Origin: Candidatus Tectomicrobia bacterium
Lineage (GTDB): Bacteria; UBA8248
Assembly: GCA_016192135.1 (NCBI GenBank)
Contig: JACPUR010000039.1
Span: 1-35,710 of the forward strand
DNA length: 35,710 bases
Reading direction: 5' to 3'
The stretch's first letter is position 1, and each line of letters opens with the position of its first letter. Below the pieces are notes generated by a model. The model made no database searches. It was not told the DNA's origin and worked only from the letters and a program-made list of their open reading frames with translations. Both the position numbers and the translations under genes were made by a program. Shown here piece by piece: positions 12,741 through 17,607 of the stretch.

Positions 12741-12769
12741 ATCATCGGAGGGGCCGGGTAGGCTGTCAA
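12741..12769 (-). promoter_or_regulatory. Sigma-70-like promoter of the HEAT-like gene
   Basis: On the minus strand TTGACA (12769-12764), exactly 17 nt, GATGAT (12746-12741). The -35 is perfect and the -10 matches 4 of 6. Transcription would begin near 12735, about 34 nt before the GTG start. Confidence 0.55.
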
Positions 12770-12867
12770 GACAAGCGCGCGCGGGGGCGGCTCCGGCGGT
12801 TCCCTCGCCCGCGCCCGCGTGCCAGAATCCGCCTCGCGGCCCTCGCACATTCTTTCAGGAGGAGCGG

Positions 12868-13656
12868 ATGCGGACCTGGTGCGACGTGGCCTTCACCCCG
12901 GCCGAGGCGGCCATCCGTCTGACCGACGCGAAGCGGGCGCGGGGGGCGGAGCCCGGGGAGGTCGTCTGCGCCGTAATTGACGTGCTGCGCGCCACCACGA
13001 CCATCGTGACCGCGCTCGGGAACGGCTGCCGCGCCGTCCATCCCGTCCCGAGCCCCCAGGCGGGCCGGGAACTGGCCGCGGCGCTCCGCGCCAGGCTGGG
13101 GAAGGACCAGGTCGTCCTCGGCGGGGAGCAGGACGGGAAGCCCATCGAGGGCTACGACGCGGGCAACTCCCCCCTCGAGTTCACGCCGGAGCGCATCGGG
13201 GGTAGGCTCCTCGTCCTCTCCACCAGCAACGGCACCAAGACCCTGGCGGCGGCCACCCCCTGCGGGCGGGTGTACGTCGCGGCCCTCGCCAACGCCCGGG
13301 CCGCGGGCCGGGCGCTCGCGGAGGACCTCCGGGCGGGCCGGGGCAGGACCCTCCTCATCGCCTGCTCGGGGCGCGAGGGCGGCTTCTGCGAGGAGGACCC
13401 GGTGGCGGCCGGGTTCATCCTGGCCCACGTCCGCGCCCGGCTGGGGCTCGCGCAGACCGAGCTCTCCGACACCGCCAAGGCCGCCCTGCGCGTCGCCGAG
13501 GGGGCGGGCCGCGACCTCCCGCGCCTCCTGCGCGAGTCCTTCTGGGGCCGCCACCTGACGGCGCTCGGCATGGCCGAGGACATCGCCTTCTGCGGCCGGC
13601 TCGACTGGACCGAGGCCGTCCCGAGGCTCGTGGACGGCGCCATCGTGGCGGGGTAG
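12868..13656 (+). CDS. comB: ComB-family 2-phosphosulfolactate phosphatase
   Basis: Family enzyme that dephosphorylates 2-phosphosulfolactate to sulfolactate, known from coenzyme M synthesis in methanogens and found in many bacteria where its role is less clear. The product has 262 residues. Family signatures are present: VIDVLRATTTIVTAL near residues 32-46, GGEQDGKPIEGYDAGNSP (about 88-105) and LSTSNGTKTL (about 115-124), followed by FCEEDPVAAG. The start at 12868 is chosen for AGGAGG at 12858-12862; the reading frame stays open upstream, but that portion overlaps the HEAT-like gene on the other strand. No other coenzyme M gene lies in the window. It may serve sulfolactate metabolism or an unidentified phosphatase role. 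Confidence 0.88.
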   Translation: MRTWCDVAFTPAEAAIRLTDAKRARGAEPGEVVCAVIDVLRATTTIVTALGNGCRAVHPVPSPQAGRELAAALRARLGKDQVVLGGEQDGKPIEGYDAGNSPLEFTPERIGGRLLVLSTSNGTKTLAAATPCGRVYVAALANARAAGRALAEDLRAGRGRTLLIACSGREGGFCEEDPVAAGFILAHVRARLGLAQTELSDTAKAALRVAEGAGRDLPRLLRESFWGRHLTALGMAEDIAFCGRLDWTEAVPRLVDGAIVAG

Positions 13657-13689
13657 CGGGAGCGAACGATAAGCGACATTTCCGGCTCC

Positions 13690-13818
13690 TCTTTCCCTCA
13701 CCCCCTTCCCCTCTCCCGGGGGGAGAGGGGCGCCAAGCCGGAAAGTCACCTCTCGGATACGAAAGTAGCCGCTCTCCCTCTCCCTTTGGGAGAGGGCCGG
13801 GGTGAGGGGAATGCCGTG
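13690..13818. repeat. Pair of CCCTC/GAGGG intergenic repeats
   Basis: CCCTCACCCC-type sequence at 13696 is answered by GGGGTGAGGGG near 13800. Two internal hairpins (CCCCTCTCCC/GGGAGAGGGG and CCCTCTCCC/GGGAGAGGG) flank a short unique stretch. This is a recognisable dispersed repeat type. It fills the gap between comB and pdxH. Confidence 0.6.
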
Positions 13819-13859
13819 GAGCGAAATTATCCCTCATCGGAAGAGGGAGTGAGGCAATC

Positions 13860-14507
13860 ATGACCGACCGCATCCAGGCCCTGCGCGGCGCGCCCCTCGA
13901 CCCCGGGAACGTGGACCCGGACCCCCTCGCCCAGTTCCGCCGCTGGTACGGCGAGGCGGCCGAGGCGGGGCAGCTCCAGCCGGACGCCATGCACCTCGCC
14001 ACGGTGGACGAGGCGGGCCGGCCCTCGGGGCGGATGGTGCTCTACAAGGACCCCCAGGAGTTCCGCCTCGGGGTGGCGGGCTTCCCCTTCTTCACCCACA
14101 CCGGGAGCCCCAAGGCGCGCGACCTGGCCGGGAACGACGGGGCGGCCCTCACCTTCCATTGGTCCGTGCTGGGCCGCCAGGTGCGCGTCCGGGGGGAGGT
14201 CCGCCCCCTGCCGGACGAGGCCGCCGACCGCTACTTCGCCGGCCGGCCCGAGGGCTCCAAGCTCGGCGCCTGGGCCTCCCCCCAGAGCCAGCCCATCGAG
14301 AGCCGCGAGGCCCTCATGGCCCGGGTCGAGGAGGTCCGCAGGCGCTTCGAGGGAAAGCCCGTCCCCCGGCCCCCCCACTGGGGCGGCTACTGGCTCGATC
14401 CCCACGAGGTGGAGTTCTGGCAGCACCGCGACGACCGCCTGCACGACCGGGTGCTCTACGCCCTCGGGGCGGGGGGAAAATGGGCCCGCCGCCGCCTCGC
14501 CCCCTGA
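13860..14507 (+). CDS. pdxH: Pyridoxamine/pyridoxine 5'-phosphate oxidase
   Basis: FMN enzyme that oxidises PNP and PMP to pyridoxal 5'-phosphate, completing vitamin B6 coenzyme synthesis. 215 residues, the usual length. Typical elements: DPLAQFRRWYGEA near residue 20, RMVLYKDPQEFRLG (about 59-72, FMN binding), GFPFFTHTGSPKARDL (74-89), SPQSQPI (about 139-145), and the closing WGGYWLDPHEVEFWQHRDDRLHDR with the substrate-binding RLHDR. The canonical FFTNY is FFTHT and the C-terminus ends RRLAP as in other PdxH proteins. GAGG lies 5 nt before the start. Its product is the cofactor of the cysteine desulfurase and the aminotransferase encoded further on. Confidence 0.95.
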   Translation: MTDRIQALRGAPLDPGNVDPDPLAQFRRWYGEAAEAGQLQPDAMHLATVDEAGRPSGRMVLYKDPQEFRLGVAGFPFFTHTGSPKARDLAGNDGAALTFHWSVLGRQVRVRGEVRPLPDEAADRYFAGRPEGSKLGAWASPQSQPIESREALMARVEEVRRRFEGKPVPRPPHWGGYWLDPHEVEFWQHRDDRLHDRVLYALGAGGKWARRRLAP

Positions 14508-14580
14508 CTTCCGGATATCTAAATCCTTTAACTCCAGTCACTTGCGTGAATTTTCCCCGGCCGCACATGACCAATCATGC

Positions 14581-14586
14581 TATAAA
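14581..14586 (+). promoter_or_regulatory. Candidate extended -10 before the small membrane protein
   Basis: TG-C-TATAAA (TG at 14578-14579) lies in a short AT-rich patch behind pdxH. No good -35 is present, which extended -10 promoters can do without. The leader would be about 165 nt and contain the CCCTC/GAGGG-type hairpin at 14655-14710. Confidence 0.3.
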
Positions 14587-14755
14587 AGGCCTATACTGAA
14601 TACCGAAAAGCGGTCTCCCATCCCAGGAGGCGAGTGTTTACTTTCAAACCACCCCCCCAATGCCTCCCCCCCTGAGGGGGGAAGGAAGAATCCCGCCCCC
14701 TTGGGGGAGGGAGCCCTGAGCGGAGCGAAGGGCGATGGGGGGAAAGGAGAGCCCC

Positions 14756-15286
14756 ATGACCGCGTCGGCCACCCACACCGGAGCCTTGCTCGCCACCGGC
14801 GCCCGCGCCCGGAGCGTCCTGATGGAGGGCATCGCCAGCGGCCTCCTCGGCGCCCTGGCCGTGGCCCTGTGGTTCTTCCTGCGCGACCTCCTCGAGGGCC
14901 AGCCCCTCCACACCCCGGGCGCCCTGGGCCAGAGCCTGGCCGCCCTCCTCGAGGGCCGGGCCGCCCGCGCCGCCGCGCCCGGCGACTCCTTCCCGGGCTC
15001 GCTGGTCTTCATCTACAGCGTGGTGCACGGCCTCGCCTTCGTCGCCGCGGGGATCGGCGGCGCCCTGGTGCTCGACTTCGGCCGGCGCAACCCCGGCTGG
15101 GAGCTCTACGCCGTCCTCTTCCTCGCCACCCTGGGGATGTGGTTCACCTTCCTCGGCATGATGCTCGTGGGGGTGATCTTCGAGGCCGTGACCATCGTGG
15201 ACATCCTCATCGCCCACCTCCTCGCCGCCCTCGCCATGGGGGCGTACTTCTGGAGGAGGCATCCGGAGGTGATCGGGGGGGTGTAG
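14756..15286 (+). CDS. Small inner-membrane protein of unknown function
   Basis: A 176-residue protein with four predicted membrane helices, roughly at residues 22-42 (LMEGIASGLLGALAVALWFF), 80-103 (SLVFIYSVVHGLAFVAAGIG), 116-140 (AVLFLATLGMWFTFLGMMLV) and 143-165 (EAVTIVDILIAHLLAALAMG). No catalytic motif is evident. The start at 14756 has AGGAG 7 nt upstream; an earlier in-frame ATG at 14735 lacks this. The gene stands alone after pdxH, and I do not recognise a named family. Confidence 0.7.
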   Translation: MTASATHTGALLATGARARSVLMEGIASGLLGALAVALWFFLRDLLEGQPLHTPGALGQSLAALLEGRAARAAAPGDSFPGSLVFIYSVVHGLAFVAAGIGGALVLDFGRRNPGWELYAVLFLATLGMWFTFLGMMLVGVIFEAVTIVDILIAHLLAALAMGAYFWRRHPEVIGGV

Positions 15287-15311
15287 GGGGGAGAGAACGA
15301 GAGGGGCAGAA

Positions 15312-15518
15312 CTAAAGCAGCGGAGCGTTGTCGCCCCGGCGGGCCATTTCCTTAAAGGCCTCCTCCCATCCTTCGCGCAGCTTCCGGACCGGCGAGATTT
15401 CCAGCACCTTTCCGCGCACTCTAATCTCGGCTTCCTCTCCGAAACCGCACCGCGCGAGGAGGGATTCGGGGAGCGGTAGAATGCGGGAATTGCCGATGCG
15501 GATGAGGTGGATTTTCAT
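15312..15518 (-). CDS. AbrB/MazE-type antitoxin, without a visible toxin
   Basis: A 68-residue swapped-hairpin DNA-binding protein: HLIRIGNSRILPLPESLLARCG, then EEAEIRVRGKVLEISPV, the AbrB/MazE pattern (given in parts). The C-terminal part (REGWEEAFKEMARRGD) is the toxin-binding tail seen in MazE antitoxins. GGAGGTG lies before ATG 15518. Downstream, where a MazF-like toxin gene would be expected, the next gene is the oppositely oriented membrane protein 26 nt away, so the antitoxin is orphaned here. It is divergent from the Ntn-hydrolase/TPR gene and might regulate it. Confidence 0.8.
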   Translation of the reverse strand: MKIHLIRIGNSRILPLPESLLARCGFGEEAEIRVRGKVLEISPVRKLREGWEEAFKEMARRGDNAPLL

Positions 15519-15560
15519 TTTTGCACCTCCACATATCGAACTTTGCGCACCATGTCTTTT

Positions 15561-15566
15561 ATTATA
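15561..15566 (-). promoter_or_regulatory. Candidate -10 box of the AbrB/MazE-like gene
   Basis: A perfect TATAAT on the minus strand within a very AT-rich stretch (15530-15600) between two divergent genes. The -35 is weak (TTGTTA at 19 nt). The opposite strand offers TATACT and TATATT at 15563-15575, possibly serving the Ntn/TPR gene, so the promoters may overlap. Confidence 0.35.
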
Positions 15567-15615
15567 CTATATATTCTAGCGCCATTAACAATCAGAAGAT
15601 GCGAAGGAGCTATTC

Positions 15616-16833
15616 TTGAGTTTGGTCGTAGCTAAAAAAACCAACAAATTTTTCTGTATCGTTGGCGACTCACAGCTTACACTGACAAATGCCACTCACC
15701 AGAATCCCTTGCAGGGGATACTTAAGTCGGTGATTCTTTCAAGCAACCTATGCGTAAGTTTCGCAGGAAACCTGCATTTTGCAGAAGAAGCAATACGAAC
15801 TATCCCTTCAATAGAGAAATCGACCCTTCAAACTGTCATCGACCACTTTTTACGTTGGCACGAGAAATCAACAGAAGCCCATGCCTCTACCACAGATTTC
15901 ATTCTTGCCATTGGCGAGCCTCACTTTTGCCTCATCGCAATCAAAGACGCAAGAGCCAATAATGTTGAAACAACTTGGATTGGAAATCAGGATGCATTTT
16001 CAGAATTTCAAGAATACATGCAGACAGAAAAATTTCCGCCTTTGCCACATCCACCCGAGGGAAATCTAGCCGCCTCAATTTCGGCCATACTCTGTCCAGA
16101 ACATCCGGACGCCGATCATTCGACATATACACGTATGAACAATGCAATGGATGCCGTCATCTATAACCAAAAGCATAAAGACGTGGGTGGATTCAAGATT
16201 CCAATCGCGACGCACAAGAATGACTTTTGTTATATGCCGTATATGCGGGTTTACCCGGAACCGGTCGTATTGCCTCCTGTGGGAGCAGAAAAAGTTATTC
16301 CTTTCGGGACCGTGGAACAGGGCGGATATGCAATAAGCTTCATGATTTCTGATTCGGCCTATCCGGCGTGTGCCGCTATACATATTTTGCAGGCCAAGAT
16401 AGGCGTTGTCTTTCTCCCAGACACAACCAATATTCCCAAATCATCTTATATCTTTCAAAACATTGACGAGATAGAATTCCGAGAGATGGTCGACAGAGAA
16501 TATGGAATCAAGGGAGGGGGGCTTGACAATTACGTTGCTCGAGGTGTTCGTCTGGCCAAACAAGGGCGATTTGAAGAAGCACTAGAAGATCTGAATAAGG
16601 CTATTCAACTAAATCCGGTTGATGCAGAGGCATACAACAATCGAGGTGGTGTATTTTGTATGTTAGAAAGGTTTGAACTCGCTATCGCTGATTTTTCTAA
16701 AGCCATCGAACTTAATCCTACATACCAAAAAGCATACTTAAATCGTGCTAAGACCTTTGAAAGAATCGGGAGGACTCAAGAAGCTACGAACGATATGCAG
16801 ACAGCAAATACATTAAGAAGCGTTCCCCGTTGA
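15616..16833 (+). CDS. HslV/proteasome-like Ntn-hydrolase domain fused to TPR repeats
   Basis: A 405-residue protein not matched to a named family by me. The N-terminus resembles HslV and the proteasome beta subunit: MSLVVAKKT, then IVGDSQLTLTN (HslV has IAGDGQATLGN), then KSVI and CVSFAGN (HslV: KKVRRL, AGFAGG). If Met is removed, Ser2 becomes an N-terminal nucleophile; D18 and K37 then align with HslV Asp17 and (with a 3-residue insertion) Lys33. The region to about residue 290 continues with strands (FGTVEQGGYAISFMI, AAIHILQAKIGVVFLP). Three TPR repeats follow at about 304-336, 337-370 and 371-401. The start is TTG with AAGGAG 6 nt upstream, which places Ser at position 2. The gene is AT-rich, unlike all its neighbours, so it was probably acquired. 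It may be a self-processing peptidase with a TPR partner-binding tail. That function is inference. Confidence 0.65.
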   Translation: MSLVVAKKTNKFFCIVGDSQLTLTNATHQNPLQGILKSVILSSNLCVSFAGNLHFAEEAIRTIPSIEKSTLQTVIDHFLRWHEKSTEAHASTTDFILAIGEPHFCLIAIKDARANNVETTWIGNQDAFSEFQEYMQTEKFPPLPHPPEGNLAASISAILCPEHPDADHSTYTRMNNAMDAVIYNQKHKDVGGFKIPIATHKNDFCYMPYMRVYPEPVVLPPVGAEKVIPFGTVEQGGYAISFMISDSAYPACAAIHILQAKIGVVFLPDTTNIPKSSYIFQNIDEIEFREMVDREYGIKGGGLDNYVARGVRLAKQGRFEEALEDLNKAIQLNPVDAEAYNNRGGVFCMLERFELAIADFSKAIELNPTYQKAYLNRAKTFERIGRTQEATNDMQTANTLRSVPR

Positions 16834-16845
16834 ACTGCACTCCTA

Positions 16846-17607
16846 CTACTCAGTGTTATCCCCCCCCACCCACACGAAAAACTCCTTGTTCCCCTTCGTG
16901 CCCGTGATGGGGCTCTCGCACAGTGCCCGGAAGGACAAACCGTTCTCCCCGGCGAACGCGCGGACGCCCGCGACGGCCTCGGCGTGCAGGGCCGGGTCGC
17001 GGACGATGCCCCCCTTCCCCACCTTCCCCTTCCCCACCTCGAACTGGGGCTTGACGAGGACGAGGATGTCGGCCCCCGGGGCCAGGAGGGCGCGGACGGG
17101 GAGGAGCACCTTGGTGGCGGAGATGAAGGAGACGTCGATGACGGCGAGCGTGGGCCGCTCCTCCCCCGCCGCGGCCCGGAAGGCCCCGGGGGTGAGGTGG
17201 CGGGCGTTCACGCCCTCCAGGAGGGTGACGCGGGGGTCGTTGCGGAGCTTCCAGTCGAGGAGGCCCTTGCCCACGTCCACGCAGACGACGCGGCGGGCCC
17301 CGCGCTGGAGGAGGCAGTCGGTGAAGCCCCCCGTCGAGGCGCCCACGTCGAGGCAGAGCCGGCCCTCGGGGGAGAGGCCGAAGGCGTCCAGGGCGCCCGC
17401 GAGCTTGAGCCCGCCGCGGCTGGCGTAGGGGACGGGGTCTTCGAGGAGGGAGATGCCGGCGTCCGGGGCCGTCGGGGCACCCGCCTTCTGGACGGACTTG
17501 CCCTCGACCAGGACGCGCCCGGCGAGGATGAGGCCCTGGGCCCGCTCGCGGCTCGGGGCGAGGCCCCGGGCGACGAGGAGCTTATCCAGCCTTTCGGTTC
17601 TTGCCAT
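16846..17607 (-). CDS. tlyA: TlyA-family rRNA 2'-O-methyltransferase
   Basis: SAM-dependent 2'-O-methyltransferase, known in mycobacteria to act on C1409 of 16S and C1920 of 23S rRNA (which confers capreomycin sensitivity); some homologs have been reported as hemolysins. 253 residues. An S4 RNA-binding domain occupies about residues 1-60 (RLDKLLVARGLAPSRERAQ). The RrmJ/FtsJ-type domain follows with SAM motif LDVGASTGGFTD (86-97) and the K-D-K-E tetrad: K68 in GGLKLAG, D158 in VIDVSF, K186 in LVKPQFE, and E in GNKEFFVW near the C-terminus. The start overlaps the end of dxs by 26 nt, so the two are coupled. It is convergent with the Ntn/TPR gene, 12 nt away. Confidence 0.95.
   Translation of the reverse strand: MARTERLDKLLVARGLAPSRERAQGLILAGRVLVEGKSVQKAGAPTAPDAGISLLEDPVPYASRGGLKLAGALDAFGLSPEGRLCLDVGASTGGFTDCLLQRGARRVVCVDVGKGLLDWKLRNDPRVTLLEGVNARHLTPGAFRAAAGEERPTLAVIDVSFISATKVLLPVRALLAPGADILVLVKPQFEVGKGKVGKGGIVRDPALHAEAVAGVRAFAGENGLSFRALCESPITGTKGNKEFFVWVGGDNTE

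Follow-up and report, generated by a model that had tools for sequence, protein, structure and literature searches.

The question raised by this locus, which lies in a window of 35,710 nucleotides from the draft assembly of a Candidatus Tectomicrobia bacterium, is what kind of protein is encoded by an AT-rich gene within a G+C-rich contig, given that family libraries recognise nothing but the TPR repeats at the end of its product. The gene (15616-16833, plus strand) is complete and encodes 405 amino acids from a TTG start codon. As a preliminary description had claimed, this start is fixed by an AAGGAG Shine-Dalgarno sequence at 15604-15609 on the same strand, separated from the TTG by a 6-nt spacer, and no in-frame ATG, GTG or TTG lies further upstream before the preceding stop. 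The G+C content of the gene is 43.8%, against 73% in tlyA alongside it and approximately 70% across the contig (mostly 62-79%), which bears out the earlier observation that it is far more AT-rich than its surroundings. The deviation forms a one-gene island (15519-16850; G+C 0.38-0.44, compared with 0.61-0.73 on both sides), at the ends of which neither flanking direct repeats nor a tRNA could be found. The low G+C content extends over both halves of the gene, at 44.3% in the N-terminal, Ntn-hydrolase part and 42.6% in the part for the TPRs, hence the fusion seems to have come in as a single unit, and its foreign composition suggests that the gene was probably acquired horizontally.

The wider setting was studied through tblastn searches with the proteins of the window against the tlyA loci of related genomes. 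In most of these, tlyA directly adjoins a relative of the minus-strand ORF at 12766-13749; in the window the two are separated by a 3.1-kb stretch (13750-16845) containing pdxH, two small ORFs and the gene of interest. The DNA of the pdxH region in relatives finds matches on other contigs, which implies that the site is a variable spot. One of the small ORFs (15312-15518, minus strand, 68 amino acids) is divergent from the Ntn gene over the AT-rich intergenic stretch and has, by eye, the look of an AbrB/MazE-type DNA-binding protein. Its proposed identity as an orphan antitoxin was set aside, as Pfam returned no match even at E ≤ 1. Two repeats are also found in this part of the window: a dispersed element of about 36 bp at 13773-13809 (of the CTCTCCCTTTGGGAGAGGGCCGGGGTGAGGG type), present in dozens of copies across genomes of the host phylum, and a C/G-run repeat of about 100 bp at 14639-14748, with many copies in the host genome and its two congeners, several of them clustered at G000:C19:60652-61009.

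Searches with the protein itself revealed little beyond its tail. Pfam recognised the TPRs alone (TPR_1, E = 1.7e-19, residues ~306-400; the repeats as a whole span residues ~302-401, 16520-16818), as the preliminary description had read them, and NCBIfam likewise returned only TPR-type matches to the full product. Residues 1-296 matched nothing in Pfam, and nothing meaningful in PHROGs or, as a single sequence, in the PDB; the Pfam Proteasome model failed to match the product, as did every HslV or Proteasome model of Pfam and NCBIfam, and PADLOC assigned it to no known defence family. Single-sequence similarity searches with residues 1-296 (or 1-215) found nothing real in plasmids, phages, viral and genome collections or 386 genomes. 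The sole match of the direct similarity searches (L010) was rejected as a chance match inside an unrelated protein.

Because single-sequence similarity had failed everywhere, a degenerate motif scan was adopted, in which the pattern K-x-h-x-h-xxx-h-x-V/I/M-x-F-A-G-N (h, hydrophobic) was searched as degenerate DNA against a species-level collection of approximately 85,000 genomes. At least six relatives were present among the matches listed. Four are comparatively close, and are encoded in a Nitrospira MAG (L047; ORF N-terminus MSLIIARIVEDEIRIISDSKIT), an Anaerolineae MAG (L073; MTLVVAKKILDNIVIVSDTKV), a member of the Lachnospiraceae (L076; MSFIYAKKIKNAIAILGDTKIT, with a TTG start) and Shinella lacus (L122; MTIVMAQKKDDQILLLADTKIG, with a GTG start). 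Those from Mucilaginibacter agri (L126) and Pseudomonas gessardii (L070) were classed as more distant on the basis that reliable alignment was limited to the first ~125 residues. When compared by BLASTP with residues 1-305 of the window protein, the Nitrospira (E = 2e-28, 28% identity), Anaerolineae (E = 2e-16) and Lachnospiraceae (E = 7e-17) proteins align over essentially the whole domain, and the Shinella protein matches with E = 2e-10. A plasmid search added one family member, the Rhodococcus plasmid protein WP_256520898.1 (L154), retrieved with the Nitrospira protein. Identity is 18-31% for the Rhodococcus protein and the four comparatively close relatives.

The residues expected of a catalytic centre could be examined across nine sequences, namely the window protein, its five close relatives (the Nitrospira, Anaerolineae, Lachnospiraceae, Shinella and Rhodococcus proteins) and three more distant ones (the Mucilaginibacter and Pseudomonas proteins and L149, described below). 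Position 2, which lies outside the search pattern, is Ser or Thr in all nine; Asp is found at position 18 in all nine, 16 residues after position 2, the same spacing as that between Thr1 and Asp17 of HslV; and a Lys is located 12 residues ahead of the F/V of FAGN/VAGD in every case. In the window protein these correspond to Ser2 (15619-15621), the predicted N-terminal nucleophile once Met1 is removed, Asp18 (15667-15669), which aligns with the HslV Asp as the equivalent of Asp17, and Lys37 (15724-15726), the Lys33 equivalent. The FAGN motif itself occupies residues 49-52 (15760-15771); its Ala50 and Gly51, the latter equivalent to the oxyanion-hole Gly47, are invariant in the close family, as are Ala6, Gly123, Val190 and Gly236. 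In six relatives the conservation of the Lys and of FAGN is partly circular, since both belonged to the pattern that retrieved them, and for these the independent evidence consists of the end-to-end alignment together with Ser/Thr2, Asp18 and the glycines further along. The Rhodococcus protein and L149 were retrieved without the pattern and likewise have the Lys; alignment of this residue to HslV by HMM is ambiguous by a few residues, and its position relative to HslV is supported by L149. The proposal that Ser2, Asp18 and Lys37 match the nucleophile and the Asp17/Lys33 pair is hence consistent with the sequences of the family, none of the nine lacking any of the three.

Profile searches with the family point towards HslV and proteasomes. 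One profile, built from five members (A2) with no HslV among them, was run over the 386 genomes and matched five proteins outside the window, four of which are HslV (175-186 amino acids). The fifth (L149) is a longer protein resembling the archaeal proteasome beta subunit (NCBIfam, E = 1e-7). Encoded at L149:1501-3207 (plus strand), it comprises at least 569 amino acids, with a proteasome-beta-like N-terminal domain and a long C-terminal part that lacks an identification. A six-member profile found one further HslV, with HslU adjoining, in a second genome sample. In direct profile comparison by hhalign the family matches HslV with a probability of 91% (E = 9.9e-7); run against the PDB sequence set, the family profile matched neither a proteasome nor HslV. 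The host genome also carries a separate, ordinary HslV with HslU elsewhere, which indicates that the product studied here is an additional, divergent enzyme. No HslU adjoins its gene, the neighbours of which are tlyA, dxs, the 68-amino-acid ORF and pdxH.

The predicted structure is in agreement with these profiles. AlphaFold2 from the single sequence reached a pLDDT of only 36, and this model was kept out of all claims on the fold. With seven family sequences, residues 1-305 gave a model of moderate confidence (pTM 0.61, core pLDDT 70-90), of low confidence in residues 21-34, 144-166 and 208-282. The order of its elements, S1-S4, H1-H2, S5-S7, H3-H4, S8-S9, two more strands and H5, matches that of proteasome beta subunits, describing an alpha-beta-beta-alpha sandwich of proteasome beta topology. 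Foldseek against the PDB placed a 20S proteasome beta subunit at the top (E = 1.7e-8, probability 1.00, target TM approximately 0.6-0.7), and the best 50 matches listed were all proteasome chains; among viral models, phage HslV-like proteins were matched. Conservation, family profile, hhalign and the AlphaFold2 model thus support the assignment of residues 1-298 (15616-16509) to a proteasome-like Ntn-hydrolase domain, the limits of which follow from the end-to-end homologue alignment and the strand and helix order. The preliminary description had confined the likeness to HslV to the first 52 residues; the motifs on which it relied (MSLVVAKKT, IVGDSQLTLTN and CVSFAGN) are where it placed them, and it is the extent that requires revision, the homologous domain being ~298 residues long. 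Neither outcome named in that description as refuting it, loss of the catalytic residues among homologues or a different predicted fold, was observed.

No TPRs are present in the sampled relatives. The Nitrospira, Anaerolineae, Shinella and Rhodococcus proteins stop about where the TPRs of the window protein start, and the Lachnospiraceae protein has a different C-terminal extension, unrecognised by Pfam. This implies that the TPR fusion is an innovation of the window protein or of a narrow group. The idea of the preliminary description that TPRs take over the partner docking of HslV is conjectural, as the relatives manage with no such repeats. The tail-less relatives are rare and scattered across taxa. 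Of the 17 further genomes of the host phylum, some of which are incomplete, none gave a detectable copy of the gene, and no family member was found by profile searches of two other phyla (195 and 85 genomes); two broad genome samples yielded no further member. Viral contigs scanned with the motif pattern returned unrelated proteins only, and the use of the relatives as queries in viral scans and in tblastn searches of phages found nothing.

In the window, no defence or mobile gene adjoining the Ntn gene was identified, and the genes surrounding the relatives were examined as well. Upstream of the Nitrospira member, on its strand and with 114 nt in between, is the gene for a reverse transcriptase (PADLOC RT_UG14, E = 6e-198); a phage integrase is encoded at a distance of 4 kb. 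This directly upstream UG14-type defence reverse transcriptase is encoded at L047:2788-4326 (minus strand), and the two genes could constitute a two-gene system. Next to the Anaerolineae member are an HU-like gene and the gene for a coupling protein of type IV secretion, and a type I restriction protein is encoded nearby; the Shinella member adjoins the plasmid replication gene repC, and 3-6 kb away are genes for a GHKL-type ATPase and for a protein with an abortive-infection C-terminal domain (Abi_C), the latter at L122:2029-2847 (minus strand). The Lachnospiraceae member has a serine recombinase and a transposase in its vicinity, and the Rhodococcus member is plasmid-borne. Mobile DNA is therefore a feature of most of the neighbourhoods examined, and defence genes of some, while no partner gene recurs among them and no sampled family member has a known partner. 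This suggests that the family is mobile, conflict-related accessory cargo without a fixed partner. The earlier idea of a role in defence or the stress response consequently gains circumstantial support from the relatives and none from the window itself.

The explanation that best accounts for the locus, and which is considered probable, is that the gene encodes a proteasome-like Ntn enzyme with TPR recruitment, horizontally acquired as accessory cargo of mobile DNA. The product would be a proteasome-like Ntn hydrolase that is soluble, stands on its own and has no propeptide, and from which methionine aminopeptidase would take off Met1 and expose Ser2. Together with Asp18, Lys37 and the oxyanion Gly51, Ser2 would form a site of the proteasome/HslV type, at which an amide bond would be cut or transferred, a peptide bond being the likeliest. 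The TPRs follow the last helix, where the C-termini of the proteasome family point outward. Their likeliest task would be to capture a substrate or partner for delivery to the active site or to an assembled particle, so that TPR recruitment would stand in for a dedicated AAA+ unfoldase. The role would plausibly lie in conflict with phages or with other elements. A less probable and tentative reading is that of a single-gene defence effector, a stand-alone proteasome-like protease whose TPRs sense a protein of phage or stress origin and thereby activate the built-in site, the mobile family being loosely paired with different defence systems such as the UG14 reverse transcriptase.

Two rivals stand out, one a connectase-like ligase and the other quality control that does without ATP. 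Connectase, which belongs to this family and is monomeric, acts as a protein ligase (PMC8665760), so that the same site might serve a transpeptidase or ligase, rather than a protease, in joining or modifying a target chosen by the TPRs. Such repeats suit a specific, non-degradative interaction with a target, and no unfoldase partner is seen; however, helices H1-H2 (H53-61 and H71-87) are predicted in the window protein and connectase is without them, and this alternative is regarded as unlikely. TPRs are also common chaperone-docking modules, and could dock chaperones to a housekeeping protease that removes damaged or unfolded proteins independently of ATP. The same role has been proposed for the uncapped proteasome and for BPH (PMC8665760), but it sits poorly with a very patchy spread, no further member having been found in the 17 other genomes of the phylum, the genomes searched from both other phyla or both broad samples, as well as with the foreign G+C content and the plasmid, integrase and conjugation neighbours of the relatives, such that quality control appears decidedly improbable.

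Two further possibilities concern the domain itself. Catalysis by the family is a prediction, and the data would be compatible with a catalytically dead relative functioning as a scaffold or adaptor, in the manner of proteasome alpha subunits; yet Ser/Thr2, Asp18, Lys37 and Gly51 are all retained at 14-31% identity, which is difficult to account for without catalysis, making this very unlikely. That the motif match arose by chance, in an N-terminal domain outside the Ntn hydrolases, might be argued from the failure of the single sequence to find a meaningful match in any family library, but is already contradicted by the profile, hhalign and structure searches, each of which returns the proteasome or HslV, and is scarcely credible.

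Among known systems, the window protein resembles HslV (ClpQ) in fold, in strand and helix order and in its N-terminal Thr/Ser1-Asp17-Lys33-type residues with the same 1-to-17 spacing. It differs in that HslV has ~175 amino acids and is paired with HslU, whereas the present product has 405 and no HslU neighbour; it also has extra C-terminal strands, a helix and the TPRs, and identity to HslV is about 15%. Fuchs, Alva and Lupas (2021) described 22 proteasome-like families, including WPH, PMI-1 to 6, PHD, DAH, GPH and FC1-5 (PMC8665760), which are similarly distant, patchy, propeptide-less prokaryotic homologues with insertions, C-terminal additions and no AAA+ partner; TPR fusion is not mentioned there. 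Compared by description only, the tail-less family could be one of these 22, DAH being a candidate through its extra C-terminal domain and actinobacterial members (PMC8665760). Anbu and BPH are likewise bacterial proteasome homologues without a known unfoldase but, again by description only, have no TPR tail described. Caspase-nuclease immunity loci (PMC12799240) share the occurrence of a protease in TPR-containing loci near defence genes and transposases, although the protease folds are unrelated and their TPRs sit in multi-gene systems. Neither the TPR-fused form nor the defence-linked neighbourhoods were described in the literature searched. Hence what is new is the TPR fusion, distant proteasome homologues being already a known kind.

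The window protein and its five close relatives provide a seed for a family missed by Pfam, NCBIfam and PHROGs. Enzymes of the proteasome family are mostly familiar as rings that receive their substrates from ATP-driven unfoldases. If the interpretation preferred here is true, a TPR-equipped member of a rare, apparently mobile family with defence genes among its neighbours would make the targeting of a proteasome-type site without an unfoldase testable, along with the use of proteasome-like enzymes by bacteria in immunity.
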